Shown here one piece after another: positions 12,469 to 25,894 of a stretch of 64,000 bases of DNA (its first letter is position 1; each line of letters starts with the position of its first letter). Location of the stretch: positions 3,455,001 to 3,519,000 of the forward strand of contig CP113055.1 in the NCBI GenBank assembly GCA_026625625.1, read 5' to 3'. A program made the translations under genes and the position numbers. Under the pieces are notes generated by a model. That model did no database searches, was not told where the DNA came from, and saw nothing but the letters and a program-made list of their open reading frames with translations. This stretch comes from Blastomonas sp. SL216 (GTDB lineage: Bacteria; Pseudomonadota; Alphaproteobacteria; Sphingomonadales; Sphingomonadaceae).

Positions 12469-12483
12469 AGGCTTGAAAAAGGA

Positions 12484-12519
12484 CCGTCACCACCCGCGCC
12501 GCAGCGCAGGTGGTGACGG
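12484..12519. terminator. Bidirectional hairpin between DUF423 and the TonB receptor
   Basis: Perfect 11-bp inverted repeat CCGTCACCACC (12484-12494) / GGTGGTGACGG (12509-12519), with a further GCGC/GCGC pairing in the loop. It lies between two convergent genes. A short A-run on the left side serves as the U-tract for the leftward transcript. Confidence 0.7.
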
Positions 12520-12528
12520 CTGGGCCGG

Positions 12529-15048
12529 TCAAAACTTGTAGCCGACTTCCACCCCGATCCGGCGCAGACCGCCGGGCGAGATGAACGATCCGCCAAACTC
12601 GGCTGCGGTGATCACTTCGTTCAGGTAACGGCGGTTGAGCACATTGTCCGCAAACAGCGTCACGCGCCACTGCTCGCCTTCCAGCCCCGCGCGCACATCG
12701 AGCACGCCAAAGGCATCGCGCCGGGTCACCGAATAATCGGCATTGCCGACAAAGGCAGGCAGCGCCAGCGCCGACCCCGGCAGCAGGCCGCTGAAGATGG
12801 TCGGCACGGTGTCGTTCTGCAGCGTGTGGAACCAGGTCGGGCCGGTGATGCGGTAATCGGCGCGGGCGACCAGATCGAAGCTCTTGGCGATCGGCGCGAC
12901 GATCTGCGTACCCAGATTGATGGTATAGTCGGCGGTCGAGGGCGACTTGTTGCCCACCGTCTGCGGACGCGAACGGTTCTGCTTGATCTCGCTTTCGGTG
13001 ACGTTGAAGGCACCGAAGATCGTCCAGCCCGGGGTCACTTCCGCGTTCAGGTTCAGTTCCGCGCCGTACAGTTCGACCTTGTCGATGTTCGACACCACGC
13101 GCAGCAGACCGAAGCCGCCGACGAAGAATTCGAAGAACTGCATGTCCTTGACGTCGGTATAATAGCCGGCGAGGTCGAACGTCACCTTGCCGTCAAAGGC
13201 CGAACCCTTGAAGCCGCCTTCGAACGCGCTCGAGCGTTCCTTGCGATAGTCGTCGGTGATGGCGACCTGCGACCCGATGAACTGGTTGAACGATTGCTGG
13301 ACGATCGCAGCCGATCCCGAATTATTGAAACCGCCCGCCTTGAAGCCGATTCCCCAATTGGCATAGACGTTGAAGTTGTCTGCCACCGACCAGCGGAAGG
13401 TCAGCTTGGGCTGAAGTTGCTTGTAGCTGTTCGACTTGTCGGGGATCGCGCCAGCGGCCTGGCCGGGGTTGATCGGTCCGCCGGTGAACGGATCGCGGAC
13501 CAGCGGCACGCGGTTCGACACGCTGCGATCCTCGACGTCATAGCGCATGGCCAGGCCGATATTGACCCGGTCGTTCCAGTTATACTCGGCCGAACCAAAG
13601 GCCGCGTACACATCGGTGCTGAAGCTGTCGAAATACAGCTGCGTCGTCGGGTTGCTGGTACCCGGCGCGTTGTACAGCTGGCGGATGATGCCCTGGCCCA
13701 GGTCCGCGCCCAGGCTGACGCCGACATCGCGGCTGATGTTGAGATAATAGGCGCCGAGCTGCCAGTTGAACGGACCGTCGCCGTTCGAGGACAGACGGAC
13801 TTCGCCCGAGAAATCCTCCTGCTGACGGATCTGGTATTGCGTGCCGTCGCAGGTTGTCGGGCTGTAGGGGCCGAAGGTCGATCCGGTGGCCGGCGCGAAG
13901 ATGAACGGCACCGGCGTCGCGCCGATAAAGCCGGGCTGGTTGACCGGGAAGCCGGTGAGCTGCGCGGTGCTGCGGAAGCAGGCGTTGGACGCCGCGACCG
14001 AGGCCGGGGTCGCACCGGGGAAGGTGAAGCGGGCAAAGTCTGCCGAGGTACCATCGGCGGTCAGCGACTGGTCGACATCGCTGTACAGGCCCCACAGGGT
14101 CAGCTTGGCAAAGTCGAACTCATGCTCCAGCTTGATCGAGGCATCGAAGGTCGTCTGGTCGTTGGTGGGGCGGATGTTGTTGTAGAAGTTGAACGGGTGG
14201 CGGTTCACATCCTCGAAAAAGGCCGGGTTGGCACCGGCAAAATTGGGCAGGTGGAAGGCCGCGTTGAAGGCGATCGATGCGCCGGTCAGGTCCGAGTAAC
14301 GCGCCTTGGCATCGATCTCGGTGCGATCGCCCAGCTGAGCGACAAACCGGCCATCGACTGACCATACTTCCTGATCGTCGATCGTCTTGGAATTGTTCAG
14401 GAAAATGTTGCGATAAAAGCCATCGGTCTTCAGGTAGCTGCCGGACAACACAAAACCGGCATTCTCGCCCAGCGGCACCGAGATAAAGGCGTTGCCGCGA
14501 TAGGTCTGCTGTTCGGCGGCGCTCAGCTCGATGCCGGCCTCCAGCGTGTCGCCGGGCTTCATCGTCTGGATCACGATCGCGCCTGCCGCTGCGTTGCGGC
14601 CATAAAGCGCGCCCTGCGGCCCTTTCAGGATTTCGATCTGGCGCAGCGTGCCCTGGTTCTGGTTGAGCTGCGCGGTGTTGGTCTTGAGGATGCCGTCGAC
14701 GACGAGGGCGACCGAGCTTTCGGCATCGCGCGCGCCGTTGATGCCGCGGATATTGATCTGCGTGTCGCCGGCCTCTGCCGTGCCGGTGACGATGGTGACA
14801 CCGGGGGTGAGCTGGACGAACTGGTCGGCGGTTTCGACGCCGGTCTTCTGGATCGCATCGGCAGTCAGCACCGTCACCGATGCCGGAACCTCGGCCAGGC
14901 TTTCATTCTGACGGCGCGCGGTGACGATGATGACATTGTCGTCCGCCTCGGCCTCGGCCTGGTCGGTCGCTTGCGCGAATGCGGGTGCCGCCAGCGCACT
15001 GGCGAGAACGGTGGCCGATGCGGCGGCAAACAGACTGGATAAGCGCAT
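12529..15048 (-). CDS. TonB-dependent outer-membrane receptor
   Basis: An 839-residue outer-membrane beta-barrel. Signal peptide ends at about residue 25 (APAFAQA). A TonB-box-like segment (NVIIVTARRQ) precedes the plug domain (PASVTVLTADAIQ, QINIRGING, EILKGPQGALYGRNAAAGAI), and the C-terminus ends in F (VEVGYKF) as barrel proteins do. It belongs to the broad class of sphingomonad receptors that take up organic substrates, not only iron. It is last in the leftward operon, 70 bases after an NTF2-like gene, so it probably imports the substrate of this island. Confidence 0.93.
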   Translation of the reverse strand: MRLSSLFAAASATVLASALAAPAFAQATDQAEAEADDNVIIVTARRQNESLAEVPASVTVLTADAIQKTGVETADQFVQLTPGVTIVTGTAEAGDTQINIRGINGARDAESSVALVVDGILKTNTAQLNQNQGTLRQIEILKGPQGALYGRNAAAGAIVIQTMKPGDTLEAGIELSAAEQQTYRGNAFISVPLGENAGFVLSGSYLKTDGFYRNIFLNNSKTIDDQEVWSVDGRFVAQLGDRTEIDAKARYSDLTGASIAFNAAFHLPNFAGANPAFFEDVNRHPFNFYNNIRPTNDQTTFDASIKLEHEFDFAKLTLWGLYSDVDQSLTADGTSADFARFTFPGATPASVAASNACFRSTAQLTGFPVNQPGFIGATPVPFIFAPATGSTFGPYSPTTCDGTQYQIRQQEDFSGEVRLSSNGDGPFNWQLGAYYLNISRDVGVSLGADLGQGIIRQLYNAPGTSNPTTQLYFDSFSTDVYAAFGSAEYNWNDRVNIGLAMRYDVEDRSVSNRVPLVRDPFTGGPINPGQAAGAIPDKSNSYKQLQPKLTFRWSVADNFNVYANWGIGFKAGGFNNSGSAAIVQQSFNQFIGSQVAITDDYRKERSSAFEGGFKGSAFDGKVTFDLAGYYTDVKDMQFFEFFVGGFGLLRVVSNIDKVELYGAELNLNAEVTPGWTIFGAFNVTESEIKQNRSRPQTVGNKSPSTADYTINLGTQIVAPIAKSFDLVARADYRITGPTWFHTLQNDTVPTIFSGLLPGSALALPAFVGNADYSVTRRDAFGVLDVRAGLEGEQWRVTLFADNVLNRRYLNEVITAAEFGGSFISPGGLRRIGVEVGYKF

Positions 15049-15121
15049 GGTGTGAACTCCCTGAAATGCGTTGGTTCCCCCGAACCATCTTGGATTTGGC
15101 GGTTGTTATTATGGCCGGTCT

Positions 15122-15520
15122 TCAGACCAGCACGTTGGTTCCGCTCATATAGACATGGACTTCCTGGAACCTGCCATCGCGCAGGCGCCAGAAATTGGTG
15201 TTGGTAAGTGTCGTCACGCTGCCATCGGCGGCGGTCAGATCGGCGATGAAACTTGCCGCTATCCGCCCATTGGTCTCATCGACAGTGCAGGTGAAATCGC
15301 GGTGGACGATCGTTTCATACGCCCCGAAGAAATCGGTGAACATCCGCTCGATCTCGGCCTTGCCGGCATGGGTGGTGAAGCTGGTCTGGACCGTGAACAG
15401 CGCCTCGTCATGAAAGCAGGCGAGCGTGGCGGCCATGTCCTTGGCATCGACGCTGGCGAAATAGGTCTGCGTTGCAAACTGGATCAGTTCGTCGCGGCTC
15501 ATCGTGGGTGCGTATTGCAT
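15122..15520 (-). CDS. NTF2/SnoaL-like protein 1
   Basis: A 132-residue cone-shaped alpha+beta-barrel protein of the NTF2-like superfamily (ketosteroid isomerase, SnoaL, small dioxygenase subunits). The pattern of an N-terminal helix, 'FHDEALFTV', 'FFGAYETIVHRDF' and a closing strand 'FQEVHVYMSG' is typical. Start ATG overlaps the stop of the preceding paralogue (TGATG), with GAAAGAGGGGGA upstream. Members can be isomerases, dehydratases or simply ligand binders; nothing here identifies the substrate. Confidence 0.8.
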   Translation of the reverse strand: MQYAPTMSRDELIQFATQTYFASVDAKDMAATLACFHDEALFTVQTSFTTHAGKAEIERMFTDFFGAYETIVHRDFTCTVDETNGRIAASFIADLTAADGSVTTLTNTNFWRLRDGRFQEVHVYMSGTNVLV

Positions 15521-15951
15521 CAGACGTCCCCCTCTTTCAGCAGATTGTCGCCGCTCATATAGACGAACACTTCCTGGAACAGCCGGTCCTTGAGATAGAA
15601 GCGGTTGCAGTTCTCGTAGCGGAGCTGATCGCCGCCATTGGGCGTGATCAGCACGGTGAACTGCGAGCAGACGGCGTTCGATTCCGGGTCAGCGACATGG
15701 ACGAAATTGCCGTGCCAGATCTGCTCGAAATCGGCGAACAGCTTGACGAACATGGCGCGGATCGCCTCGCGGCCGTCATGCACGGTATTCGACGTCACCT
15801 CGGTGAGCCGCGCGTCGGGGGCGAAGCAGTTGAGCACCTGGTCCATGTTCTTGTTGTCGACGCCATCGAAATAGCGCTTGGTGACAATGTCGATGTAGAA
15901 CGGATAAGGCAGCGGTGCTTGACCTGCGCTGCCGGGTGACCAGTCTGTCAT
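15520..15951 (-). CDS. NTF2/SnoaL-like protein 2
   Basis: About 143 residues, a paralogue of the next gene downstream: both end in the nearly identical strand FQEV(H/F)VYMSG(T/D)N. It contains 'CFAPDARLTEV' and 'WHGNFVHV', positions that line the pocket in this fold. The start at 15951 overlaps the stop of the racemase-fold gene by one base (TGATG); a GTG three codons earlier is possible. Tight coupling to its paralogue suggests a heteromer or successive steps on similar compounds (inference). Confidence 0.8.
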   Translation of the reverse strand: MTDWSPGSAGQAPLPYPFYIDIVTKRYFDGVDNKNMDQVLNCFAPDARLTEVTSNTVHDGREAIRAMFVKLFADFEQIWHGNFVHVADPESNAVCSQFTVLITPNGGDQLRYENCNRFYLKDRLFQEVFVYMSGDNLLKEGDV

Positions 15952-16703
15952 CAGAACCAACCCTTTCTAATGTCTGCATCCTTGGGCACTTCCGGCATCG
16001 GAAAGGCCTTTTTGCTGTGCGTGAGGCCGCATTCGATCAGCCCTTCCAGGAACTTCCACGCCACCTGGCCGGGATTGATCACCGGGATGGGGAGGTTGGC
16101 GGCCAGGAACGCTGCCGACTGGTGCATGGTGGTGGAGCCGAGAACGATCGCGTCGGCGCCATCCTCTTCCATGGCCCGGGTTGCCTCGGCCTTCAGCTTG
16201 TCGAAGATCACCTCTTCCTTGCCCGCGAGCAGTTCGGTCACATCGGGCCGGGTGTTGATCGATCGCAGGGAAGCGACGCGGTCCCAGAAACCGTATTCGG
16301 TGAGCGTCTTCTGATAGAGCGGAAACCATTCGGGCCACATGGTGAGCACGGTGAACTTCTTGCCCAGCATCATCGCGGCGGCAAAGGCGGCTTCACCCGG
16401 TCCGATCACCGGGATCGACAGGCGCGATCGCAGCGCACGCAGACCCGAATCGCTGACCGTGTCGATCAGTACCCCGGCATAGCCTTCCTCTTCGGCGGTG
16501 ACGCCGGTCTGGAACACCGTCCAGTCCATAAGCAGCATGTCGTGATAGCTGTCACCCAGCGCCGCACCCCAGGGAACGGCAACGAATTCGGGCGTGAATC
16601 CCGGGCGCACGAAGTCGGACGGGAGCTGCGCGGCACGGGCGGCAACGCCGGCCTCGTCCATGGGAATAGGAACTATCACCTTGATGCGGCGATCATCTGC
16701 CAT
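15951..16703 (-). CDS. Asp/Glu-racemase-superfamily protein lacking both catalytic Cys
   Basis: A 250-residue protein with the hydantoin racemase/maleate isomerase fold: repeated half-domains, GPGEAA after the first active-site loop, and DAIVLG before the second. In true racemases both loops carry Cys. Here they read IDTVSDSGL (Thr at residue 82) and VLGSTTM (Ser at residue 190); the only Cys is at 225 near the C-terminus. Two-thiol racemization is therefore unlikely. It leads the leftward operon, divergent from gntR, and a role on the same substrate as HyuAB is inferred. Confidence 0.8.
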   Translation of the reverse strand: MADDRRIKVIVPIPMDEAGVAARAAQLPSDFVRPGFTPEFVAVPWGAALGDSYHDMLLMDWTVFQTGVTAEEEGYAGVLIDTVSDSGLRALRSRLSIPVIGPGEAAFAAAMMLGKKFTVLTMWPEWFPLYQKTLTEYGFWDRVASLRSINTRPDVTELLAGKEEVIFDKLKAEATRAMEEDGADAIVLGSTTMHQSAAFLAANLPIPVINPGQVAWKFLEGLIECGLTHSKKAFPMPEVPKDADIRKGWF

Positions 16704-16760
16704 GCGCTACCCCACCTTCATGGACCGTCTGCGCCGGTTGATCCGGCCGCGATCCATGGC

Positions 16761-16793
16761 TTGACGGTATTGTATACAAATGTCTATCGTCAA
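16761..16793. promoter_or_regulatory. Divergent promoter with GntR operator TTGTATACAA
   Basis: The palindrome TTGTATACAA spans 16770-16779. It is flanked by TTGACG (16761-16766, plus strand) and CGTCAA (16788-16793, which is TTGACG on the minus strand), so possible -35 boxes for both directions bracket the operator. A plus-strand -10-like TATCGT is at 16785-16790. The same TGTATACA core recurs ahead of the rightward catabolic genes, supporting recognition by the GntR protein encoded next to it. Confidence 0.6.
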
Positions 16794-16889
16794 TAGCGAA
16801 ATTGGCTTGGCGCAAGATCGGCGCAATTTGGCGCGCACCTGGCATGGGACGCCGCAAGGGCGCGCAGCATTGGGACGGGATGAAACCGC

Positions 16890-17573
16890 ATGGAAAAGGC
16901 AGCTTCGCCGCGGGCATCGGATATTGCCTATGACAAGATCCGTCAGTTCGTGCTGTCCGGGCGCGCAGAGCCGGGCCAGCAGCTGACCGAGGAGCAGCTC
17001 GCGCGCATTTCCGGCGTGTCGCGAACGCCGGTACGCGAGGCGGTGCGGCGGCTCGAGAACGAGCTGCTGATCGTTCGAAGCGATTCCAAGCGGCTGTTCG
17101 TGGCGGACTGGTCGGCCGACGATATCGACGAGATGTTCGTGCTGCGCGGCATGCTGGAAGGCCATGCCGCTAGCCGCGCTGCGCGCAACATCACCGGGCG
17201 TCAGATCGAGGAACTGGGCCGGATTTCCGACCTTCTCGACGCGGCGGTCCGATCAAGTCCGCCCGATGTCGCCGCGTTTCTCGCGCAGAACCGGAATTTT
17301 CACGAGGTCATTCTCGAGGCGGCACGCTCGCCCCGATTGAGCGCGATGCTGCCGATGCTGGTCGAGCAGCCGGTCGTCCGCCGCACCGCCGCGCAGTACA
17401 AGACGGACGAGCTGCTGCAATCGGCGCGCGAGCATCGCGAACTGATCGCCGCCTTTGTCGCGCGCGATTCGCATTGGGCGCGTGCGGTGATGACCAGCCA
17501 TATCCGCCGCGCCTTCCACGTCTTCAGCAGCACCGCCAAGCGGCACAAGGAGCAGCGCCAGGCCAATGATTGA
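16890..17573 (+). CDS. GntR-family regulator (FadR/FCD subfamily)
   Basis: A 227-residue regulator. The N-terminal winged HTH contains the family signature (LTEEQLARISGVSRTPVREAVRRLENE, two adjoining segments of it), followed by an all-helical FCD ligand domain. FCD ligand-binding metal residues are suggested by D/H positions such as NRNFHEVIL and MTSHIRRAF. It sits at the divergence point of the island with operator palindromes in both directions. The likely role is substrate-released repression of both arms; the inducer is unknown. Confidence 0.9.
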   Translation: MEKAASPRASDIAYDKIRQFVLSGRAEPGQQLTEEQLARISGVSRTPVREAVRRLENELLIVRSDSKRLFVADWSADDIDEMFVLRGMLEGHAASRAARNITGRQIEELGRISDLLDAAVRSSPPDVAAFLAQNRNFHEVILEAARSPRLSAMLPMLVEQPVVRRTAAQYKTDELLQSAREHRELIAAFVARDSHWARAVMTSHIRRAFHVFSSTAKRHKEQRQAND

Positions 17574-17610
17574 GGCAATTTTCTCCGGCGCTGGACGCGC
17601 ATGTCTGAAA

Positions 17611-17618
17611 TGTATACA
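17611..17618. promoter_or_regulatory. Second TGTATACA operator, before the lyase gene
   Basis: TGTATACA at 17611-17618, followed by AA, is identical in ten bases (TGTATACAAA) to the site at 16771. It lies 10 bases before the ATG at 17628. If the protein began at 17601 or 17610 the operator would be inside the coding sequence, which argues for the downstream start. Confidence 0.6.
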
Positions 17619-17627
17619 AACATTGCC

Positions 17628-18533
17628 ATGACCCGCATCCAGATTGTCGAAGTCGGCCCGCGTGACGGCCTGCAGAACGAACCGGACATCGTCTCCACCG
17701 CTGACAAGCTGGAGATGATCGGTCGCATGATCGATGCAGGCGCGCGCAGGTTGGAGGTGGCAAGCTTCGTCCATCCGCAGCGCGTGCCGCAAATGGCCGA
17801 TGCGGAAAGCGTGATCGCCGGGCTGCCCGATCGCGAAGACGTGTCCTATATCGGCCTCACGCTGAACAAGCGCGGCGTGCTGCGCGCGCTGGCGACGAAG
17901 GAGGGCGGCAAGCGCGGGGTCGACGAAATCGGTTGCGTCATCGTCGCCACCGATACCTTCGGGCAGAAGAACCAGGGCCAGACCGTCGCCGAAGGCATTG
18001 CCGAAGCGAGCGAGATGATTCGCTTCGCCAAGGAAAACGGCCTGATCGCGCAGGTCACCATTTCAGCGGCGTTCGGCTGTCCGTTCGAGGGCGATGTGCC
18101 GCCGCAGCGGATCGTCGATATCGCCAGGGCGGTGCTGGAGGCAGGGCCTTCCGAGATCGCGCTGGCGGACACGATCGGTGTCGGCGTGCCTGCGCAGGTG
18201 AGCGACCTTTACGGACGTCTGCGCGAATTCGTGCCGATGGAGATTCCGCTGCGCGCGCATTTTCACAACACGCGCGGCACCGGTATCGCCAATGCCTGGG
18301 CCGCGATCCAGGCCGGCGTCACCGTGCTCGACGCAAGCCTGGGCGGGCTGGGCGGCTGCCCGTTCGCGCCCAGGGCCACCGGAAATATCGCCACCGAAGA
18401 GCTGATCTATCTCGCAGAGCGGTCAGGCATCGACCACGGCATGGATTTGGACGCCGCCATCGCGGCCAATCGCTGGATGGCCGGGATCCTCGGCCGGGAG
18501 CTGCCCTCCCTGGTTGCCCGCGCGGCAGCCTGA
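17628..18533 (+). CDS. Hydroxymethylglutaryl-CoA lyase family enzyme
   Basis: A 301-residue DRE-TIM metallolyase. It has the active-site strand EVGPRDGLQNE with catalytic Arg/Asp, the metal His pair in HFHNTRGTG, and the mobile Cys loop GGLGGCPFAP; all catalytic residues are present. HMG-CoA lyases cleave 3-hydroxy-3-methylacyl-CoA to acetyl-CoA plus a keto acid. Leucine-pathway partners (methylcrotonyl-CoA carboxylase) are absent; instead HyuA, HyuB and a CoA-transferase follow. A related branched hydroxyacyl-CoA may be the real substrate. ATG 17628 is chosen because family members begin just here. Confidence 0.87.
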   Translation: MTRIQIVEVGPRDGLQNEPDIVSTADKLEMIGRMIDAGARRLEVASFVHPQRVPQMADAESVIAGLPDREDVSYIGLTLNKRGVLRALATKEGGKRGVDEIGCVIVATDTFGQKNQGQTVAEGIAEASEMIRFAKENGLIAQVTISAAFGCPFEGDVPPQRIVDIARAVLEAGPSEIALADTIGVGVPAQVSDLYGRLREFVPMEIPLRAHFHNTRGTGIANAWAAIQAGVTVLDASLGGLGGCPFAPRATGNIATEELIYLAERSGIDHGMDLDAAIAANRWMAGILGRELPSLVARAAA

Positions 18534-18593
18534 CGGGAAGGCCAACACATCAATCGTGTCGGCGGCCATGTCGGCAAGTGAAGGGGTGAATGA

Positions 18594-20651
18594 ATGAGTT
18601 ACAGGCTGGGTGTCGATGTGGGCGGCACATTTACCGATCTGCTGCTGTTCGACGAACAATCCGGCGCCTTTTGGCGTCACAAGACCCCGTCCACGCCGCA
18701 TGACAGCTCGGAAGGCATTCTGACCGGCGTGCAGGCGATCTGCGGCAGCGCGGGCATCACGCCTGCCGATGTCGAGATCTTCCTGCACGGCACGACGGTC
18801 GCCACCAATGCGGTGCTGGAGGGCAAGGGCGCACGCGTCGGCCTGATCGTCACCGAAGGCTATCGCCAGGTGATGCAGATCGCGCGCAGCTTCGTCCCCG
18901 GCGGGCTTGCCGGCTGGATCGTCTGGCCCAAGCCGACGCCGCTCGCCGCACTGGAGGACACGTTCGAGGTCAAGGGGCGCATGTCCGCGCAGGGCGAGGA
19001 AATTCGTGCGGTGGACGATGCCGATATCCGCGCCGTGCTGGAACGGCTGAAGGCGCAAGGCGTCGAGGCGCTGACGGTCAGCCTGATGAACGCATATCTC
19101 AACGGCGCGCACGAAAAGCGGGTGGCGGAACTGGCCGCCGAGATCCTGCCTGATGTGCCGATTTCGCTGAGCCATATCGTGCTGCCCGAGATGCAGGAAT
19201 ATGAGCGGACGCTGACCACCGTCGCCAACGCCGCAGTGCGCCCGGTGGTCGGCCGTTATGTCCGCAACCTGCGCAGCCGCCTGCGCGACGCGGGCATGGC
19301 GGGCAAGCTCGCCCTGCTGCGCTCGGACGGCGGGCTGATGTCCTCCGAAAAGTCCGAAGAGCATCCCGTCTCGCTGCTGATGTCGGGGCCTGCAGGCGGC
19401 GTCACCGGTGCGATCTGGGTCGGCAAGAACGCCGGTATCCGCAATATTCTGACGCTCGACGTCGGCGGCACCTCGACCGACGTGGCGCTGATCGAGAATC
19501 TGGAGGCGCGCCGCGTGCGCACCACCGAGGTCGGGCACCTGTCGGTCCGCGCTTCGGCGCTCGACGTGAAGACGGTCGGCGCTGGCGGCGGATCGATCGC
19601 CTATGTGCCTGAACTGACGGGAGCCCTTCGCGTCGGCCCGCAATCGGCGGGCGCGGTGCCCGGCCCGGTGGCCTATGGGAAGGGCGGCGAGCTGCCCACC
19701 GTGACCGATGCCAATGTCGTGCTCGGTTATCTGCCCGAGGCACTGCTCGGCGGCACCTTCAAGCTCGACCGCGAGGGCGCGAAAAAGGCGGTCCAAACCA
19801 TCGCCGATGCGCTGAAGATCGACCTCTACGCCGCCGCGCGCGGCATCATCGATATCGTCAACGAGAACATGTTCGGCGCGCTGCGCATGATCTCGGTGCA
19901 GCAGGGCTATGACCCGCGCGACTTTGCGCTGATGGGCTTTGGCGGCGCAGGCCCGCTGCACGTCAATGCGGTCGCCCGGCTGATGGGCAGCTGGCCCGCA
20001 ATCTCTCCGGTCTCGCCCGGCGTGCTGTGCGCGCTCGGCGATGCGACGACGCGGATGCGCACCGAAACCGCGCGCAGCTTCTCGCGGCTCGCAAGCGCCA
20101 CCACGCTGGAGGAATTGGGCGGCATTCTCGACGAGATGGCCACCCAGATCGGCGACGAGCTGGTCGCTGAGGGCGTCGCGAAGGACGATATCACGATCAC
20201 CTTCGAGGTCGATGTCCGCTATGCGGGCCAGGCGTTCGAGGTGCCGATGGCGGTGACCCGCGACGACCTGCACAGCCATGGCATCGAATGGCTGACCGGA
20301 CGCTTTGACGAGGAGCACCACCGGCTGTTCACCTTCAACATGGATTCGGAGCACGAGATCGTGAACCTGCGCGCCGTCGCGATGGGCCAGGCGCTCGACC
20401 TGCCCGCCGCCACGCTGCCGCAGGGCAACGGCGATCCGTCGGCGGCGAAGCTGCGCGATCATGAGCTGTGGATGGACGGGGCGATGATGCCTGCGGTCAT
20501 CTACGATCGCTCCAAGCTGCTTGCCGGAGACGTGATCCCCGGCCCGGCCATCGTCATCGAAATGGATTCCACCACGCTGATCGAAGCGGATTGCACCGGC
20601 ACCGTCGATGCCGTCGGCAACATCCTGATCACGCTGAAGACGGGGAACTGA
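18594..20651 (+). CDS. hyuA: Hydantoinase/oxoprolinase family, subunit A
   Basis: ATP-dependent subunit of 685 residues with the ASKHA-type nucleotide fold: PHOSPHATE-1 loop (VDVGGTFTD, residues about 7-15), the HGTTVATNAVLEG segment, and PHOSPHATE-2 (LDVGGTSTDVAL). The family covers N-methylhydantoinase A, 5-oxoprolinase and the ATPase subunits of acetone and acetophenone carboxylases. It works with HyuB encoded 4 bases downstream. Sequence alone does not tell ring hydrolysis from ketone carboxylation. GAAGGGGTGA precedes the ATG. Confidence 0.9.
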   Translation: MSYRLGVDVGGTFTDLLLFDEQSGAFWRHKTPSTPHDSSEGILTGVQAICGSAGITPADVEIFLHGTTVATNAVLEGKGARVGLIVTEGYRQVMQIARSFVPGGLAGWIVWPKPTPLAALEDTFEVKGRMSAQGEEIRAVDDADIRAVLERLKAQGVEALTVSLMNAYLNGAHEKRVAELAAEILPDVPISLSHIVLPEMQEYERTLTTVANAAVRPVVGRYVRNLRSRLRDAGMAGKLALLRSDGGLMSSEKSEEHPVSLLMSGPAGGVTGAIWVGKNAGIRNILTLDVGGTSTDVALIENLEARRVRTTEVGHLSVRASALDVKTVGAGGGSIAYVPELTGALRVGPQSAGAVPGPVAYGKGGELPTVTDANVVLGYLPEALLGGTFKLDREGAKKAVQTIADALKIDLYAAARGIIDIVNENMFGALRMISVQQGYDPRDFALMGFGGAGPLHVNAVARLMGSWPAISPVSPGVLCALGDATTRMRTETARSFSRLASATTLEELGGILDEMATQIGDELVAEGVAKDDITITFEVDVRYAGQAFEVPMAVTRDDLHSHGIEWLTGRFDEEHHRLFTFNMDSEHEIVNLRAVAMGQALDLPAATLPQGNGDPSAAKLRDHELWMDGAMMPAVIYDRSKLLAGDVIPGPAIVIEMDSTTLIEADCTGTVDAVGNILITLKTGN

Positions 20652-20655
20652 ACCC

Positions 20656-22533
20656 ATGCCCGCCACCATCATCCAGACCAACAACACCCCGTTCGAGAAG
20701 CAGACCATCGATCCGGTCAGTCTCGACATCATCGAAAACGCGCTGCGCAACGCGCGCATCGAAATGGACGCGACGCTCGTCCGCACCGCCATGTCGCCCG
20801 GCATCCGCGAGCAGGGTGATGCCTTTCCGCTGATCGCCGACCATCTCGGCCGGATGATCGTCGGTCAGTTCGGCAGCTTTATCGGCGGCTTTCTCGAGGG
20901 CTATGACGGCACGCTCGAGGATGGCGACATGATCTTTCTGTCCGATCCCTATTCGGTCGGCGGCGCGATCAGCCATTGCAACGACTGGCTCGTTCTTCTC
21001 CCCGTGTTCAAGGATGGCCGCCTGCTCGCCTATACCGCGATGTTCGGCCATCAGAGCGACATTGGCGGCAAGGTGCCCGGATCGATGCCGATCGATGCGA
21101 CCAACATCTTCCAGGAAGGCGTGCGCATTCCGCCGGTGAAGATTTACAAGCAGGGCGTGTACAACGAGGATCTGGTCAAGCTGGTGCTGCACCAGAGCCG
21201 CACGCCGGCCTGGTGCGCGGCAGACCTCAACGCCCTGATCGCCTCGTGCCGCGTCGCGGCGCGCCGGGTGATCGAGATGAGCGAGCGCTTTGGCGTCGAC
21301 ACCTATGTCTCGGCGACGCAGGAGCTGCTCGCGCGCAACCACCGCGCGATGAAGACCCTGCTCGCCCAGGCGATCAGCGAAGACCCGGTAAGCTTCGAGG
21401 ATTATATCTGCGACGACGGCATGGGCTATGGCCCGTACAAGCTGAAGTGCACGATGTGGCGCGACGGCGACAAGGTCATCCTCGATTTCGACGGCACCGA
21501 TCCGCAGAGCCAAGCCTCGATCAACTTCCTGCTCAACGAGAACATGTTCAAGATGTTCTTTGGCATCTACATGATCATGGTCTTCGATCCGCAGATCCTG
21601 TTCAACGACGGGTTCTATGACCTGATCGAGGTGCGCATTCCCGATGGCTCGCTGCTCAAGCCGCGCTATCCCGCCGCTCTGTCGGGTCGTACCCACGCGC
21701 TGGGCCGCATCTTCGACATCCTCGGCGGGCTGCTCGGCCAGAAGACGCCCGAGTTCCTCAACGCCGCCGGATTCTCGTCGTCGCCGCACCTGTTCTATGC
21801 GGGCACCGACAAGAAGGGCGAGTGGTTCCAGCTGTTCCAGATCGGCTTTGGCGGCATTCCGGGACGACCGATGGGCGACGGGCCCGATGGCCATTCGCTC
21901 TGGCCGGGCTTTACCAACGTGCCCAACGAGTTTCTGGAACGCTATTTCCCGCTGGTCATCGAGCGCTACGAGACCGTGCCCGATAGCGGCGGCGCAGGGC
22001 TGCATCGCGGCGGCAACGGCATCATCATGACCTATCGCTTCCTGGAGCCCGGCGTCATCGCGATCCATGACGACCGCTGGTTCGTGCCGCCCTGGGGCGT
22101 CAATGGCGGCAAGCCGGGCGCACGCGCGCGCAAGATCCTGGAAAAGCCCGATGGCACGCAGACCATTGTCGGCAACAAGGTGGAAGATGTCGCCATCGAG
22201 GCGGGTGACGTGCTGCACTTCATCACCTGGGGCGGCGGCGGCTGGGGCGACCCGCTGGAGCGCGATCCCGAGCTCGTCGGCAAGGAAATCCGCCAGGGGC
22301 TGGTCACGCCAGCTGGCGCCAGGGCCTATGGCGTGGTCGCCGATGCCGATGGCGTGGTCGACACGGCCGCGACCGAGGCCTTGCGGGCCGAGATTCTGGC
22401 CGAGCGCGGCGATCTTCCGCTGTTCGATTACGGCCCGGGCATCGAGCAATTGCGCGCCAATTGCCTTGAGGAAACCGGGCTGCCCGCGCCGATCCAGCCG
22501 CGCTGGGCCAATTACGCCATTGCTGCAGAATAA
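20656..22533 (+). CDS. hyuB: Hydantoinase/oxoprolinase family, subunit B
   Basis: A 625-residue partner of HyuA. It has the typical N-terminus (VSLDIIENALRNARIEM), the metal-centre region (LSDPYSVGGAISHCNDW, MFGHQSDIGG) and a C-terminal Gly-rich strand (GGGGWGDP). It is somewhat longer than common hydantoinase B proteins (about 520-590). It follows hyuA by 4 bases and precedes the CoA-transferase by 12, so all belong to one operon. The reaction, ATP-driven opening of a cyclic amide or carboxylation of a carbonyl compound, is undecided. Confidence 0.9.
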   Translation: MPATIIQTNNTPFEKQTIDPVSLDIIENALRNARIEMDATLVRTAMSPGIREQGDAFPLIADHLGRMIVGQFGSFIGGFLEGYDGTLEDGDMIFLSDPYSVGGAISHCNDWLVLLPVFKDGRLLAYTAMFGHQSDIGGKVPGSMPIDATNIFQEGVRIPPVKIYKQGVYNEDLVKLVLHQSRTPAWCAADLNALIASCRVAARRVIEMSERFGVDTYVSATQELLARNHRAMKTLLAQAISEDPVSFEDYICDDGMGYGPYKLKCTMWRDGDKVILDFDGTDPQSQASINFLLNENMFKMFFGIYMIMVFDPQILFNDGFYDLIEVRIPDGSLLKPRYPAALSGRTHALGRIFDILGGLLGQKTPEFLNAAGFSSSPHLFYAGTDKKGEWFQLFQIGFGGIPGRPMGDGPDGHSLWPGFTNVPNEFLERYFPLVIERYETVPDSGGAGLHRGGNGIIMTYRFLEPGVIAIHDDRWFVPPWGVNGGKPGARARKILEKPDGTQTIVGNKVEDVAIEAGDVLHFITWGGGGWGDPLERDPELVGKEIRQGLVTPAGARAYGVVADADGVVDTAATEALRAEILAERGDLPLFDYGPGIEQLRANCLEETGLPAPIQPRWANYAIAAE

Positions 22534-22545
22534 GGGAAGGATGAG

Positions 22546-23757
22546 ATGAGCCAGGACAACCGGGGGGCATTGGCCGGCATTCGTGTCGTCGAACTGGGGC
22601 AGTTGATCGCAGGTCCGTTCTGCGGCCAGCTGCTCGGCGACATGGGAGCCGAAGTGATCAAGGTCGAGCCCCCGGCTGTCGACGGCAAGGGTGGCGGCGA
22701 CCCGATGCGCAACTGGGGCCATGGCGAGCACAAATTGTGGTGGGAGGTCGTGGCCCGCAACAAGAAGTCGGTCAGCGCCAATCTGCGCATCGCCGAAGGG
22801 CAGGAGATCGTGCGCAAGCTTGCCGCGCATGCCGATATCCTGATCGAGAATTTCAAGCCCGGCACGATCGAGAAATGGGGGCTGGGCCCCGATGCGCTGC
22901 ACGCCATCAACCCCCGGCTCATCATCGTGCGCGTCTCTGGCTATGGCCAGACCGGCCCCTATTCGTCGCGCGCGGGCTTTGGAGGCATTGGCGAGGCGAT
23001 GGGCGGCTGGCGCGCGATCGTCGGCGATCCTGACCGCCCGCCCAGCCGCATGGGCGTATCGATCGGCGACAGCCTGGCGGCGACCTATGGCTGCATGGGC
23101 GCACTGGCCGCGCTGCACGCCCGCGAGCGTACCGGCAAGGGCCAGGTGGTCGACAGCGCGCTCTATGAGGCGGTGCTGCAGGTGATGGAAAGCCTGGTGC
23201 CCGAATATATGGTCAGCGGCCATGTGCGGCGGCGCACCGGGTCGATCCTGGAAGGTATTGCGCCGAGCAACGTCTATCAGTGCAGCGATGGCGAATATCT
23301 GATCGGCGCAAACCAGGACGCGGTGTTTGGCAGGCTATGCCAGGCGATGGGGCGTCCCGAACTCGCGACCGACCCGCGCTATGTCAGCCATGTCGCGCGC
23401 GGCCAGAACCAGAAGGAACTCGATGACCTGATCGAGGCCTGGACATCCAGGCTGACCGTTGCTGAGGTCGAGGCGCTGATGATCGAATACAGCGTGCCTG
23501 CCGGCAAGATTTATGGTGCGGCCGACATGCTGGAGGACGAGCATTTCAAGGCGCGCGAGGCGCTGGTCGAGGTCGACAGCCCGCGCTGGGGCAAGTTCGC
23601 CATGCAGAACAGCTTCCCCAAGCTGTCGGGCACGCCAAGCGCGATCCGGACGCTCGCCCCGCAGAGCATCGGCGAGCATAATGACGAGATCTATGGCAAG
23701 CTGCTGGGCATGGACCAGCAGACGATCGACAATCTGAAGGATGCTGGGGCGATCTGA
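22546..23757 (+). CDS. Family III CoA-transferase (CaiB/BaiF)
   Basis: A 403-residue acyl-CoA:carboxylate CoA-transferase. It begins with the conserved region GIRVVELGQLIAGPFCGQ, then DILIENFKPG and GYGQTGPY. The GDSLAA motif places an Asp at residue 175 where the family's covalent-intermediate Asp lies, and GKGQVVDSAL follows. It would activate a carboxylic acid produced by HyuAB (inference), making a thioester that the HMG-CoA-lyase homologue could cleave. AGGGAAGG sits before the ATG. It is the last gene of the rightward operon. Confidence 0.9.
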   Translation: MSQDNRGALAGIRVVELGQLIAGPFCGQLLGDMGAEVIKVEPPAVDGKGGGDPMRNWGHGEHKLWWEVVARNKKSVSANLRIAEGQEIVRKLAAHADILIENFKPGTIEKWGLGPDALHAINPRLIIVRVSGYGQTGPYSSRAGFGGIGEAMGGWRAIVGDPDRPPSRMGVSIGDSLAATYGCMGALAALHARERTGKGQVVDSALYEAVLQVMESLVPEYMVSGHVRRRTGSILEGIAPSNVYQCSDGEYLIGANQDAVFGRLCQAMGRPELATDPRYVSHVARGQNQKELDDLIEAWTSRLTVAEVEALMIEYSVPAGKIYGAADMLEDEHFKAREALVEVDSPRWGKFAMQNSFPKLSGTPSAIRTLAPQSIGEHNDEIYGKLLGMDQQTIDNLKDAGAI

Positions 23758-23764
23758 TTGTTCG

Positions 23765-23838
23765 TTCTCCGGCGAAAGCCGGAGCCCAGCGGCGGTGTCG
23801 CACTATCTGACTCCTGGGCTCCGGCTTTCGCCGGAGAA
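23765..23838. repeat. Nested REP-like palindrome / bidirectional terminator
   Basis: A perfect 25-bp inverted repeat (arms 23765-23789 and 23814-23838, 24-base spacer). Each arm is itself a small hairpin, because CTCCGGC pairs with GCCGGAG around AAAG/TTTC. It lies between convergent genes, as repetitive extragenic palindromes often do, and could end both transcripts. Confidence 0.8.
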
Positions 23839-23851
23839 CAGGTTGAGTGGC

Positions 23852-24484
23852 TCAGCCCTTTAGCCCGGCAAGATAGTCGAGCGCCTCGCCCTCGCGCACG
23901 ACATCGGCGTACTTGGCGTTCATGTCGAACAGGTTCGCCTCGTGCGGGGCCTGGTGCCGGTCGCCACAGGCATCGGCGATGACGATCGGGATGAAGCCGT
24001 GGCTGGATGTGTCGACACAGGTCGCGCGCACGCAGCCGCTCGTCGAGAGCCCGGTGAGCAGCACCGTATCGACACCCATCGCGGTCAGCGTCGCGGCGAG
24101 CGAGGTGCCGAAAAAGGCGCTGGGATATTGCTTGGAAATCACGATCTCGTCGGCGCTCGGCTCAAGCCCTTGCGGCCATGCCCCCATCGGCGATCCGGCA
24201 ACGAACACCTCGAGCAGCGGCGTCTTCTGCATGAAGCGGCCGCCATCGACCAGGCTGGGGTGATAGACGACATTGGTGTAGATGATCGGGATGCCCGCAT
24301 CGCGCGCTGCATCGCGGACGCGGATGGCGCTGGCCAGTGCATCCTCGACCCCTGCAAACAGCACGCAATCGGGGTCGAAATAGGCCTGGACGAAATCGAT
24401 CAGCAGCAGGGCAGGGCGCTGGCCAAAGCCGATGCGGTTGCCGAACACGCCCGCATAGTTCGATGCCGCTTCCGATTCTGTCAT
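23852..24484 (-). CDS. Isochorismatase-like cysteine amidohydrolase (N-carbamoylsarcosine amidase type)
   Basis: A 210-residue hydrolase with the full triad of the family: Asp30 (LLLIDF), Lys118 (ISKQYPSAF) and Cys151 (LSTSGCVRA). The SGCVR context and EGEALDYLAG end fit N-carbamoylsarcosine amidohydrolases, which remove a carbamoyl group from N-carbamoyl amino acids, the product class of hydantoinases. That agrees with HyuAB next door. It is transcribed toward the CoA-transferase from its own promoter, outside the two GntR-flanked operons. Confidence 0.87.
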   Translation of the reverse strand: MTESEAASNYAGVFGNRIGFGQRPALLLIDFVQAYFDPDCVLFAGVEDALASAIRVRDAARDAGIPIIYTNVVYHPSLVDGGRFMQKTPLLEVFVAGSPMGAWPQGLEPSADEIVISKQYPSAFFGTSLAATLTAMGVDTVLLTGLSTSGCVRATCVDTSSHGFIPIVIADACGDRHQAPHEANLFDMNAKYADVVREGEALDYLAGLKG

Positions 24485-24550: not shown

Positions 24551-25894
24551 TCAACAGGCTGGCGCGGCGGAATGCAAGCGGGCGGCTCCGACATGCGGAT
24601 GAATTTGCCCGCGAAAGCCATCGAACTGCGCCGCGATCACGCGGGCATAGGGTTCGGATCCCTTGGCCAGCACCAGATCGTCACCCTCCCAAAAAAGCAG
24701 CCCGCGCCGTTCGAACTCGGTCAGCACGGCGCGGGCAGTAGGGAGGAACTCGGAATTGAGGGACGCGCGGCCCCGGCACAGCAGCGCATTGATGATGTCG
24801 CTGCGCTTCATGTCATCGGCGTTGAGCGCCACGCCGCGTGTCGGCGTCAGGCGACCTTCGCTCACCAGCTTGCGATAGGGCCCGGCATTCTTCTCGTTCT
24901 GCACGATCAGTCCGGGCAGGATGCTGATCGCGCTGGCGCCGAAGCCGAGCAGCGTGGACGCGCCATCGTGCGTGAAGCCCTGGAAATTGCGGTTCACCCG
25001 GTTCTCGCGCGCGGCAATCGCGAGCGGATCGCCGGGCAGCGCGAAATGATCGAACCCCACCGGAACATAGCCCGCCTGGGTCAGCGTCAGATAGCCATAG
25101 GCGGCCTGCTCGAAGCGCTCGCGGTCATCGGGCAGGTCGGCTGCGTCGATCCGCTTCTGCCGCGGGATCATGTCGGGCAGATGGGCATAGCCGAACAAGG
25201 CGATGCGGCTGGGCGCCAGGCGAATGGTCTGTTGCAGCGTCGCGTCCAGATCATCGAGATGCTGACCGGGCAGGCCGTACATCAGATCGAAATTGATCGC
25301 TTCGATGCCGCGCATGCGAAGCGACGTCATCGCGGTTTCGATATGGTCGAGCGGCTGGATGCGGCCGATCGCCGCCTGGATATGCGGCGCGAAGGTCTGC
25401 ACGCCCATGCTTACCCGGCTGACCCGCGACGAGGCGAGCACGAGCGCCCATTCCGACGTGAAATTGCGCGGATCGATCTCGATCGAGATTTCGGGACGCG
25501 AACAATCGAACACCGTCATGATCCGATCGAGCAGCCGCACGAATTCGACCGGCGCGATCGCATTGGGGCTGCCGCCGCCAAAGGCGATATGCTGCACGCG
25601 GCCCCGCCCGCCCAGGCGCTTGGCGACCTGGGCGATCTCGGCGCGCAGCGCGGTGAGATAGTCGGTCAACCGATGCTTGCGATTGGCCGCGCCCGTGTTG
25701 CAGCCGCAATACCAGCAGATCTGCTCGCAATAGGGAATGTGGACATAGAGCGAGAGCGGCGCTCCCGATTCCACCGCATCGAGCGCGCGCATATAGTCGC
25801 CAGCCCCCACATCCTCGCCGAAATCGGCAGCGGTGGGGTAGCTCGTATAGCGCGGCACGGGGCGGCTGAGCAGATCGGGGTGATATGTCCACAT
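24551..25894 (-). CDS. hemN: Oxygen-independent coproporphyrinogen III dehydrogenase
   Basis: Radical SAM enzyme of 447 residues for haem synthesis without oxygen, decarboxylating coproporphyrinogen III. It has the N-terminal PRYTSYPTA motif and the 4Fe-4S cluster motif CEQICWYCGC (CxxxCxxC plus a further Cys), then FGGGSPN and SMGVQTF. Length is normal. An FNR-type box lies 35 bases upstream, so expression under oxygen limitation is expected. The start has almost no leader and only a weak GCAGG. Confidence 0.95.
   Translation of the reverse strand: MWTYHPDLLSRPVPRYTSYPTAADFGEDVGAGDYMRALDAVESGAPLSLYVHIPYCEQICWYCGCNTGAANRKHRLTDYLTALRAEIAQVAKRLGGRGRVQHIAFGGGSPNAIAPVEFVRLLDRIMTVFDCSRPEISIEIDPRNFTSEWALVLASSRVSRVSMGVQTFAPHIQAAIGRIQPLDHIETAMTSLRMRGIEAINFDLMYGLPGQHLDDLDATLQQTIRLAPSRIALFGYAHLPDMIPRQKRIDAADLPDDRERFEQAAYGYLTLTQAGYVPVGFDHFALPGDPLAIAARENRVNRNFQGFTHDGASTLLGFGASAISILPGLIVQNEKNAGPYRKLVSEGRLTPTRGVALNADDMKRSDIINALLCRGRASLNSEFLPTARAVLTEFERRGLLFWEGDDLVLAKGSEPYARVIAAQFDGFRGQIHPHVGAARLHSAAPAC

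Follow-up and report, generated by a model that had tools for sequence, protein, structure and literature searches.

A ten-gene locus at positions 12529–24484 of a 64,000-nucleotide stretch of Blastomonas sp. SL216 DNA (the window), part of a 3.86 Mb genome in a single contig, very probably forms one conserved, co-regulated catabolic module. We observe a gene content that is conserved as a set, an operator shared by two divergent arms and, beside closely related HyuAB proteins, either a coenzyme A (CoA)-transferase with a lyase or an isocitrate-lyase-type enzyme. The best single reading, to which we give slightly less than an even chance, is that the ring of a cyclic imide or close analogue is opened and that the pathway finishes by cleaving an acid of alkylmalate type.

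Conservation of the HyuAB locus

The first-pass annotation had called the locus an orphan island, a description that its distribution contradicts. We counted co-occurrence, without correction for relatedness, in several sets of genomes. HyuB of the module is present in 94 of 296 evenly drawn genomes of the order (98 orthologue rows of at least 57% identity, with two fragment rows of genome G060 and one 50% row of G014 omitted), and a lyase homologue lies within 6 kb on the same strand in 84 of these 98 rows. For gene order we used the 80 best-scoring HyuA loci from named species genomes, a set that is hence biased, retaining the 70 with at least 3 kb on each side and excluding 10 with under 3 kb of flank. 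The lyase directly precedes HyuA and the CoA-transferase directly follows HyuB in 34 of the 70, always both together, and 36 contain an amidase match. A TonB receptor accompanies 31 of the 32 loci that have lyase and CoA-transferase without the isocitrate-lyase type, and is also found at loci L146, L147, and L149. All ten genes, with order and strands unchanged, are present at 86–97% protein identity in the five nearest named loci, of which four are labelled Blastomonas and one is labelled Sphingomonas sp. 35-24ZXX.

The module extends well beyond the order. HyuA was matched at E ≤ 1e-170 in 14 of 398 genomes of the phylum, five from the same family (the window's own included) and nine from outside the order; ten loci of these nine genomes, read in stretches of 14–19 kb, contain lyase and CoA-transferase in 8/10, amidase in 8/10, and LeuC/LeuD-type genes in 7/10. 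At L147, from another class of the phylum, a PrpR_N-type sigma-54 regulator, TonB receptor, CoA-transferase, lyase, HyuA, HyuB, amidase, LeuC, and LeuD form a single-strand run, and the regulator of L150 resembles that of L147 by eye. Among 532 plasmid records we opened 14 regions, one of them (L115) without annotation. These include seven of the ten listed records at 44–57% HyuA identity (Acidiphilium, Geobacillus, Rubrobacter, and four haloarchaea), and all seven hold HyuA, HyuB, and an isochorismatase-type amidase together. A CoA-transferase is present in five of them, four with an HMGL- or LeuA-type gene, and an isocitrate-lyase/phosphoenolpyruvate-mutase-type gene in the other two; the Rubrobacter record has no lyase within the examined stretch. 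Control loci with 41–43% HyuA identity have no amidase, CoA-transferase, or isocitrate-lyase-type gene (0/3). The core is thus HyuA, HyuB, the isochorismatase-type amidase, the CoA-transferase, and a hydroxymethylglutaryl-CoA (HMG-CoA)-lyase-type enzyme, often joined by LeuC/LeuD-type hydratases in distant taxa, and it recurs in Acidiphilium, Geobacillus, haloarchaea, and other classes of the phylum. Such co-occurrence in other sphingomonads had been proposed as a check on the idea of a single pathway; HyuA, HyuB, CoA-transferase, and lyase homologues are found together there and in distant taxa, and this co-occurrence, with both arms flanking one conserved operator, upholds that idea.

Two plasmids stand apart in gene content. 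Plasmid pJE1 of Sphingomonas sp. JE1 (L112) carries a HyuA 87% identical to the window's in a cluster whose annotation lists MmgE/PrpD, a REDY-like HapK protein, and succinate-semialdehyde dehydrogenase but no core amidase, CoA-transferase, or lyase. The HyuA of Sphingobium plasmid pTomTYG65b (L113) is near-identical to it.

A shared operator in the divergent gap

Uninterrupted open reading frames (ORFs) and Pfam matches bear out the ten genes and the family names that the first-pass annotation had given them. The locus reads as follows (window coordinates).

12483–12520, minus strand: terminator-like hairpin of 17 pairs with a T run, behind the TonB receptor at the end of the minus-strand arm
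12529–15048, minus strand: TonB-dependent receptor (uptake); Pfam plug and barrel
15122–15520, minus strand: NTF2/SnoaL-like protein a; Pfam SnoaL/NTF2
15520–15960, minus strand: NTF2/SnoaL-like protein b; Pfam SnoaL/NTF2; ORF from a TTG at 15960, overlapping RAC by a few bases
15951–16703, minus strand: RAC, allantoin/Asp-Glu-racemase-fold protein; Pfam Asp_Glu_race; lacks both catalytic Cys (T82, S190)
16761–16790, plus strand: sigma-70-like promoter TTGACG-18-TATCGT for GntR, HMGL, HyuA, HyuB, and CoA-transferase, with operator O1 in its spacer
16770–16779, no strand: operator O1, perfect palindrome TTGTATACAA, in the divergent RAC/GntR gap
16890–17573, plus strand: GntR/FCD regulator; Pfam GntR and FCD
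17610–17619, no strand: operator O2, one mismatch, between GntR and the likely true HMGL start
17628–18533, plus strand: HMG-CoA-lyase-type lyase (HMGL); Pfam HMGL-like; ORF listed from 17601, start at 17628 proposed
18594–20651, plus strand: HyuA, ATP-binding alpha subunit of a hydantoinase/lactamase-type amidohydrolase; Pfam Hydantoinase_A N, middle, and C domains
20656–22533, plus strand: HyuB, beta subunit; Pfam Hydantoinase_B
22546–23757, plus strand: family III CoA-transferase; Pfam CoA_transf_3
23852–24484, minus strand: AMID, isochorismatase-fold amidase; Pfam Isochorismatase

The promoter is visible in the alignment, with operator O1 as a perfect palindrome inside its spacer. Promoter-like sites occur at chance level (2 found against 2.6 expected) and are weak alone, and the 10-mer at two mismatches shows no excess over chance in the window (3 against 3.2 expected), so that the operator argument rests on conserved position. 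We examined the 34 loci that exceed 10 kb and have matches to both GntR and the lyase. All 34 contain the site with one mismatch or none, and in 31 it is exact; in 32 of the 34 it occupies the divergent gap between the receptor or RAC and, on the opposite side, GntR or the lyase (exceptions, L050 and L118). The exact palindrome was found in 37 of 153 loci overall, with no exact copy in the distant loci L116–L125 and L140–L153; the 14-mer TATTGTATACAAAT has a single copy in the entire genome, and its reversed control none.

Because the palindrome sits in a promoter gap common to both arms, the two arms likely belong to one regulon, and a single GntR repressor acting on both would be the simplest model. 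The regulator combines a winged helix-turn-helix with an FCD domain and the promoter holds a TNGT..ACNA-like palindrome, which we take to be the FCD-type GntR operator consensus; binding is predicted. His138, His182, and His204 of the FCD domain are invariant in 29/29 rows, presumably reflecting a metal-bound carboxylate effector.

HyuAB and the probable opening of a ring

HyuA is the sole match of its kind in the genome at E ≤ 0.001. Its best solved match is N-methylhydantoinase (445 bits; structure 7hk5), with more distant kinship to the acetophenone carboxylase gamma chain (298 bits) and the acetone carboxylase beta chain (211 bits). HyuA, HyuB, and the CoA-transferase all fall under every listed curated NCBIfam cut-off. 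The best-scoring curated models for HyuA and HyuB are the caprolactamase subunits, at 534 and 219 bits, and the CapAB equivalog cut-off of 1000 bits each is not reached.

These scores leave several chemistries to be weighed, and the first-pass annotation had offered both ring opening and ketone carboxylation. Published family criteria place two-gene hydAB clusters among cyclic amidohydrolases and assign a gamma gene to the carboxylases (PMC5214803). The window has the two-gene hydA-hydB order of the alpha-beta type, with no gamma subunit, and ring opening by HyuAB agrees with these criteria. The carboxylase gamma model PF08882 has no match in this genome, nor in 14 control genomes; it matches one of 13 other module-bearing genomes, on a contig other than that of HyuAB, which indicates that the search is able to detect such genes (the match lies in genome G793 at C5:529744–529995). 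Ketone carboxylation is disfavoured because this genome has no gamma match, and we rejected it as the leading idea. An ATP-dependent ketone carboxylase, supplying the CoA-transferase and an HMG-CoA lyase for the cleavage of a branched 3-hydroxyacyl-CoA, would account for the kinship to the acetophenone and acetone carboxylases, but it runs against the gamma result and the criteria in PMC5214803 and leaves unexplained the amidase that is so frequent in lyase-type loci (26/34); we consider it very improbable. HyuAB is instead inferred to catalyze ATP-dependent hydrolysis of a cyclic amide.

A lactam or pyrrolinone that bears a separate primary amide on its side chain would offer HyuAB a ring to open and AMID a side-chain amide to hydrolyse. 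The caprolactamase models at the top of the curated list fit this route. Plain lactam opening, however, leaves an amine for which the shared core has no enzyme, and AMID would require a second amide, making the route rather improbable. Caprolactamase CapAB of Pseudomonas jessenii is likewise a two-subunit, ATP-dependent lactam-opening enzyme, but its pathway continues through an aminotransferase (PMC6061476), and the module's HyuAB scores far below the equivalog cut-off. The gamma-lactamase of Aromatoleum, in indoleacetate-type metabolism, resembles the module in placing a Hyd-type enzyme within a CoA-thioester pathway, although the available portion of PMC5214803 names no amidase, HMGL, or LeuCD for Aromatoleum; in our loci, by contrast, HyuA of 80–88% identity also occurs in clusters without an adjacent CoA-transferase.

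Internal stops had been reported in HyuB orthologues. Of four such loci that we re-read, two proved to have no stop, and in the other two the stop falls at query residues 618 and 622 of 625, where the alignment runs beyond the C-terminal stop.

Amidase, CoA-transferase, and lyase

AMID has an isochorismatase fold with Asp, Lys, and Cys, which we take to be the catalytic residues of the N-carbamoylsarcosine amidohydrolase/maleamate amidase type; the Lys and Cys motif stretches are kept in the printed variants. Its best solved match is N-carbamoylsarcosine amidohydrolase (26st, 150 bits), followed by 3ot4 at 138 bits (3ot4 and 3uao are, we assume, maleamate amidase). AMID has a match in 26 of the 34 loci of lyase type, in 5 of the 21 of isocitrate-lyase type, and in 5 of the 15 with neither. 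The window and the five closest loci carry the gene on the minus strand; where other lyase-type loci have it, it mostly follows the CoA-transferase on the plus strand. Given downstream enzymes of dicarboxylate type, we favour a half-amide over a carbamoyl compound as the candidate AMID substrate; the carbamoyl reading stays a real rival because of the top score.

On that rival reading, HyuAB would open an N-substituted or plain hydantoin, AMID would remove the carbamoyl group, and the amino acid would be deaminated before the CoA-transferase and lyase act. Both best solved matches (HyuA at 445 bits, AMID at 150 bits) and the allantoin/hydantoin racemase fold of RAC speak for it. Set against them, RAC lacks both racemase cysteines, and the shared core includes neither an aminotransferase nor an amino-acid dehydrogenase. 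Moreover, the substrates of LeuC/LeuD, family III CoA-transferases, HMGL, and isocitrate-lyase types are carboxylates rather than amino acids. We judge a hydantoin route unlikely. The creatinine route, which uses N-methylhydantoinase and N-carbamoylsarcosine amidohydrolase and ends in sarcosine, shares with the module an ATP-dependent HyuAB and an isochorismatase-fold amidase; the module differs in adding a CoA-transferase and lyase, or an isocitrate-lyase-type enzyme, and sometimes LeuC/LeuD.

The family III CoA-transferases (cluster c4, window included) have Glu in 37/37 sequences at an aligned position that we take to be the catalytic Asp site of formyl-CoA transferase; by eye, the CoA-transferase of L147 has Asp there. 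The lyase keeps the motif stretches RDGLQ, HxHNTR, and GGCP[FY]AP in the printed variants, with rare single changes, and passes the NCBIfam hydroxymethylglutaryl-CoA lyase subfamily model (296 bits, cut-off 246). Other PF00682 matches in the genome lie only at 2134312 and 2839384. The second operator copy at 17610–17619 indicates that the lyase probably starts near 17628 rather than 17601.

Two kinds of carbon-carbon lyase

The 70 loci divide by lyase into 32 with the adjacent pair of HMGL and CoA-transferase only, 21 with the isocitrate-lyase type only, 2 with both, and 15 with neither (Fisher p = 2e-6, the rows not being independent). On a quick HyuA tree these labels, which count a gene anywhere within the locus and require a strong HMGL match, change at least 8 and 7 times on well-supported branches; L117 and L120 are labelled as having none despite an annotated CoA-transferase and a LeuA/citramalate-synthase-type gene. 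HyuA of isocitrate-lyase-type loci is up to 88% identical to the window's (L037, L038). The label changes together with this identity suggest that two unrelated carbon-carbon lyases probably serve the same upstream enzymes.

This pairing narrows the intermediate. Enzymes of the isocitrate-lyase family convert 2-hydroxy acids to 2-oxo acids, which makes an intermediate of malate type a better fit than one of glutarate type, and both lyase kinds are suited to a hydroxy-dicarboxylate. The Chloroflexus (R)-citramalyl-CoA lyase is presumably akin to HMGL. A known pair of (R)-citramalate CoA-transferase and (R)-citramalyl-CoA lyase splits an alkylmalate and provides a precedent for the CoA branch (PMC8307300); the module's pair differs in being tied to a ring-opening amidohydrolase and an amidase.

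An unsaturated dicarboxylate would also call for a hydratase. The genome holds four aconitase-family and three HMGL-family genes, as well as two further partial sets. The first (L162, C1:2831000–2850000) has a CoA-transferase (30%), a lyase (41%), and an amidase-type protein (38%), with a LeuC-type protein 65% identical to a sister-cluster one, two PuuE-like genes, an aldehyde dehydrogenase, and a small DUF3598_N-like protein. The second (L164, C1:2365000–2383000) has an isocitrate-lyase-type protein 78% identical to a sister-cluster one, LeuC, LeuD, a TonB receptor, a DUF1838 protein, and a methyltransferase and a 120-amino-acid family (c8, c17), both of which also lie near HyuAB in other genera. 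These partial sets suggest that another part of the genome could provide the window's pathway with a hydratase. The neighbouring domains DUF3598_N and DUF1838 give no clue to the substrate; the scanned c17 proteins have no Pfam match, and one scanned against NCBIfam had none either.

A proposed cyclic-imide pathway and its alternatives

We propose a GntR-repressed catabolic pathway for a nitrogen heterocycle of cyclic-imide type. The TonB receptor would import the ring compound; HyuAB with ATP would phosphorylate a ring carbonyl and open the ring to a half-amide, from which AMID would release ammonia and a dicarboxylate. If this dicarboxylate is unsaturated, a LeuC/LeuD-type hydratase, in-cluster in some relatives and elsewhere in the genome here, would yield an alkylmalate. 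The CoA-transferase would then form the CoA thioester, and the HMG-CoA-lyase-type enzyme would split it into an acyl-CoA and an oxo acid. In this scheme we infer the repression, every reaction, the step order, and the substrate.

The imide theme draws support from sister clusters. PuuE-like genes, whose best model is allantoinase PuuE (145 bits, cut-off 425), occur in 19 of the 80 loci, including 18 of 21 of isocitrate-lyase type and 1 of 15 of neither type, and two copies each are present on the Acidiphilium plasmid and in L162. HxnM, which closely resembles PuuE in structure and shares 64% identity with a cyclic imide hydrolase homologue of Pseudomonas putida, is assigned as a cyclic imide hydrolase in fungal nicotinate breakdown, after which an amide hydrolase gives a hydroxy-dicarboxylate (PMC9304392). 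The fungal sequence from cyclic imide through half-amide to hydroxy-dicarboxylate parallels our proposal; it differs in that, as far as the available part of PMC9304392 describes, these steps involve no HyuAB, HxnN resembles fatty acid amide hydrolase, and no CoA or lyase step follows.

Several observations weigh against this proposal. PuuE-like genes occur in 0 of 34 loci of the window's own lyase type, and because of this absence the imide argument is indirect for the window; control locus L123, from the set with 41–43% HyuA identity, also has a polysaccharide deacetylase gene. The role of HxnM was assigned from metabolites of deletion strains, not by enzyme assay (PMC9304392). The two lyase kinds are not strictly exclusive, because a more distant HMGL match, away from HyuA, is present as well in 5 of the 21 loci of isocitrate-lyase type, 4 of them with a CoA-transferase match. 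LeuC/LeuD-type matches occur in 14 of 70 loci and in only 1 of the 32 pure lyase-type loci, and no such gene was found in the window. AMID scores best against N-carbamoylsarcosine amidohydrolase, and is present in just 5/21 isocitrate-lyase-type and 5/15 neither-type loci. The lyase passes the model for HMG-CoA lyase, an enzyme whose usual substrate is a glutaryl thioester. Finally, we know of no enzyme of this clade that has been assayed.

Two more specific substrates were considered. In the bolder of these readings, the module would be the missing route for complete breakdown of tetrapyrrole monopyrrole fragments (alkylmaleimides, hematinic acid) in bacteria and haloarchaea: HyuAB would open the maleimide, AMID would free its nitrogen, LeuCD would hydrate the alkylmaleate, and the CoA-transferase/lyase or isocitrate-lyase type would cleave the product, for example a hematinic-acid-derived tricarboxylate to propionyl-CoA and 2-oxoglutarate, with RAC as a new racemase-fold activity using Thr/Ser/His in place of two cysteines. 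We regard this as improbable. The available text of one study of leaf samples reports hematinic acid and no maleimides (PMC7318184), and we found no paper in the open-access literature linking maleimide breakdown to HyuAB. An isonicotinate/citrazinate (aconitimide) substrate was also considered, as an acid derived from cis-aconitate would suit both lyase kinds; plain aconitate would need no dedicated lyase, and the open-access literature yielded nothing on enzymes for this reading.

Found through its HyuB in 94/296 genomes of the order, and present in distantly related bacteria and archaea too, the module still lacks a named substrate, and we recognised no open-access paper describing this gene set. 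Public annotations name its parts 5-oxoprolinase, hydroxymethylglutaryl-CoA lyase, N-carbamoylsarcosine amidohydrolase, and citramalate synthase, labels that may be misleading. Knowing the ring compound would bring a further nitrogen heterocycle into the known carbon and nitrogen cycle of the environment, put many annotations right, and reveal whether the chemistry of the cysteine-free racemase subfamily is new; since two lyase kinds narrow the intermediate, the substrate question is directly testable.

RAC and the NTF2-like proteins

The first-pass annotation had named a racemase-fold protein, and its fold and kinship stand: RAC matches PF01177 at 103 bits and allantoin racemase in both sequence and predicted fold (best Foldseek match 3qvk, E = 1.1e-16; model mean pLDDT, the predicted local distance difference test, 82, from a nine-sequence alignment). 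The two catalytic cysteines of allantoin racemase do not, being replaced by T82 and S190. The signatures IDT-SD and LGSTTMH hold in RAC and the examined relatives of at least 43% identity, with the single exception of N for D in L181. Among remote matches (32–33%), L041 and L044 retain the second Cys, and a second L182 hit has neither signature. An arylmalonate-decarboxylase-like protein of the sister clusters (13 sequences) also seems, by eye and with no reference alignment, to lack both Cys. Genomes G696 and G811 of one genus (L183, L184, L185) have five and six matches to the cysteine-free RAC subfamily at E ≤ 1e-50, some in tandem pairs.

Beyond the window's own genus and L093, a RAC gene is found no more than about 10 kb from HyuAB in L145/L150, L148/L152, L180, L183, and L185 (the last two from one genus), and in L182 an isocitrate-lyase-type match adjoins RAC. 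The gene for NTF2-like protein a adjoins RAC in L032–L036, L093, L150, L152, L179, and L180, and was not matched in L181–L185. These associations bear on whether the RAC/NTF2/receptor arm is a separate function joined to the HyuAB arm by chance. RAC and NTF2 genes are absent from most lyase-type loci, and four of seven RAC stretches (L179, L181, L182, L184) show no HyuAB within the fetched stretch, as separate functions would predict; against this, 32/34 loci have the operator site, with no more than one mismatch, in the divergent gap, and RAC recurs near HyuAB in the five further loci just named. A chance union is highly unlikely, and the evidence points to a pathway role for RAC whose chemistry differs from racemisation by two cysteines. 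In the imide pathway proposed above, RAC and the NTF2 proteins may supply accessory steps.

Flanking features

Terminator-like sites number 9 in the window against 7.7 expected, and the hairpin behind the receptor has the most pairs. At the other end, a gene named by eye as a HemN-like oxygen-independent coproporphyrinogen dehydrogenase (24551–25894, minus strand; cluster c42) lies 66 bp upstream of AMID. It is also present in the five closest loci and, in the window, is on the same strand as AMID, with which it may be transcribed in this genus.

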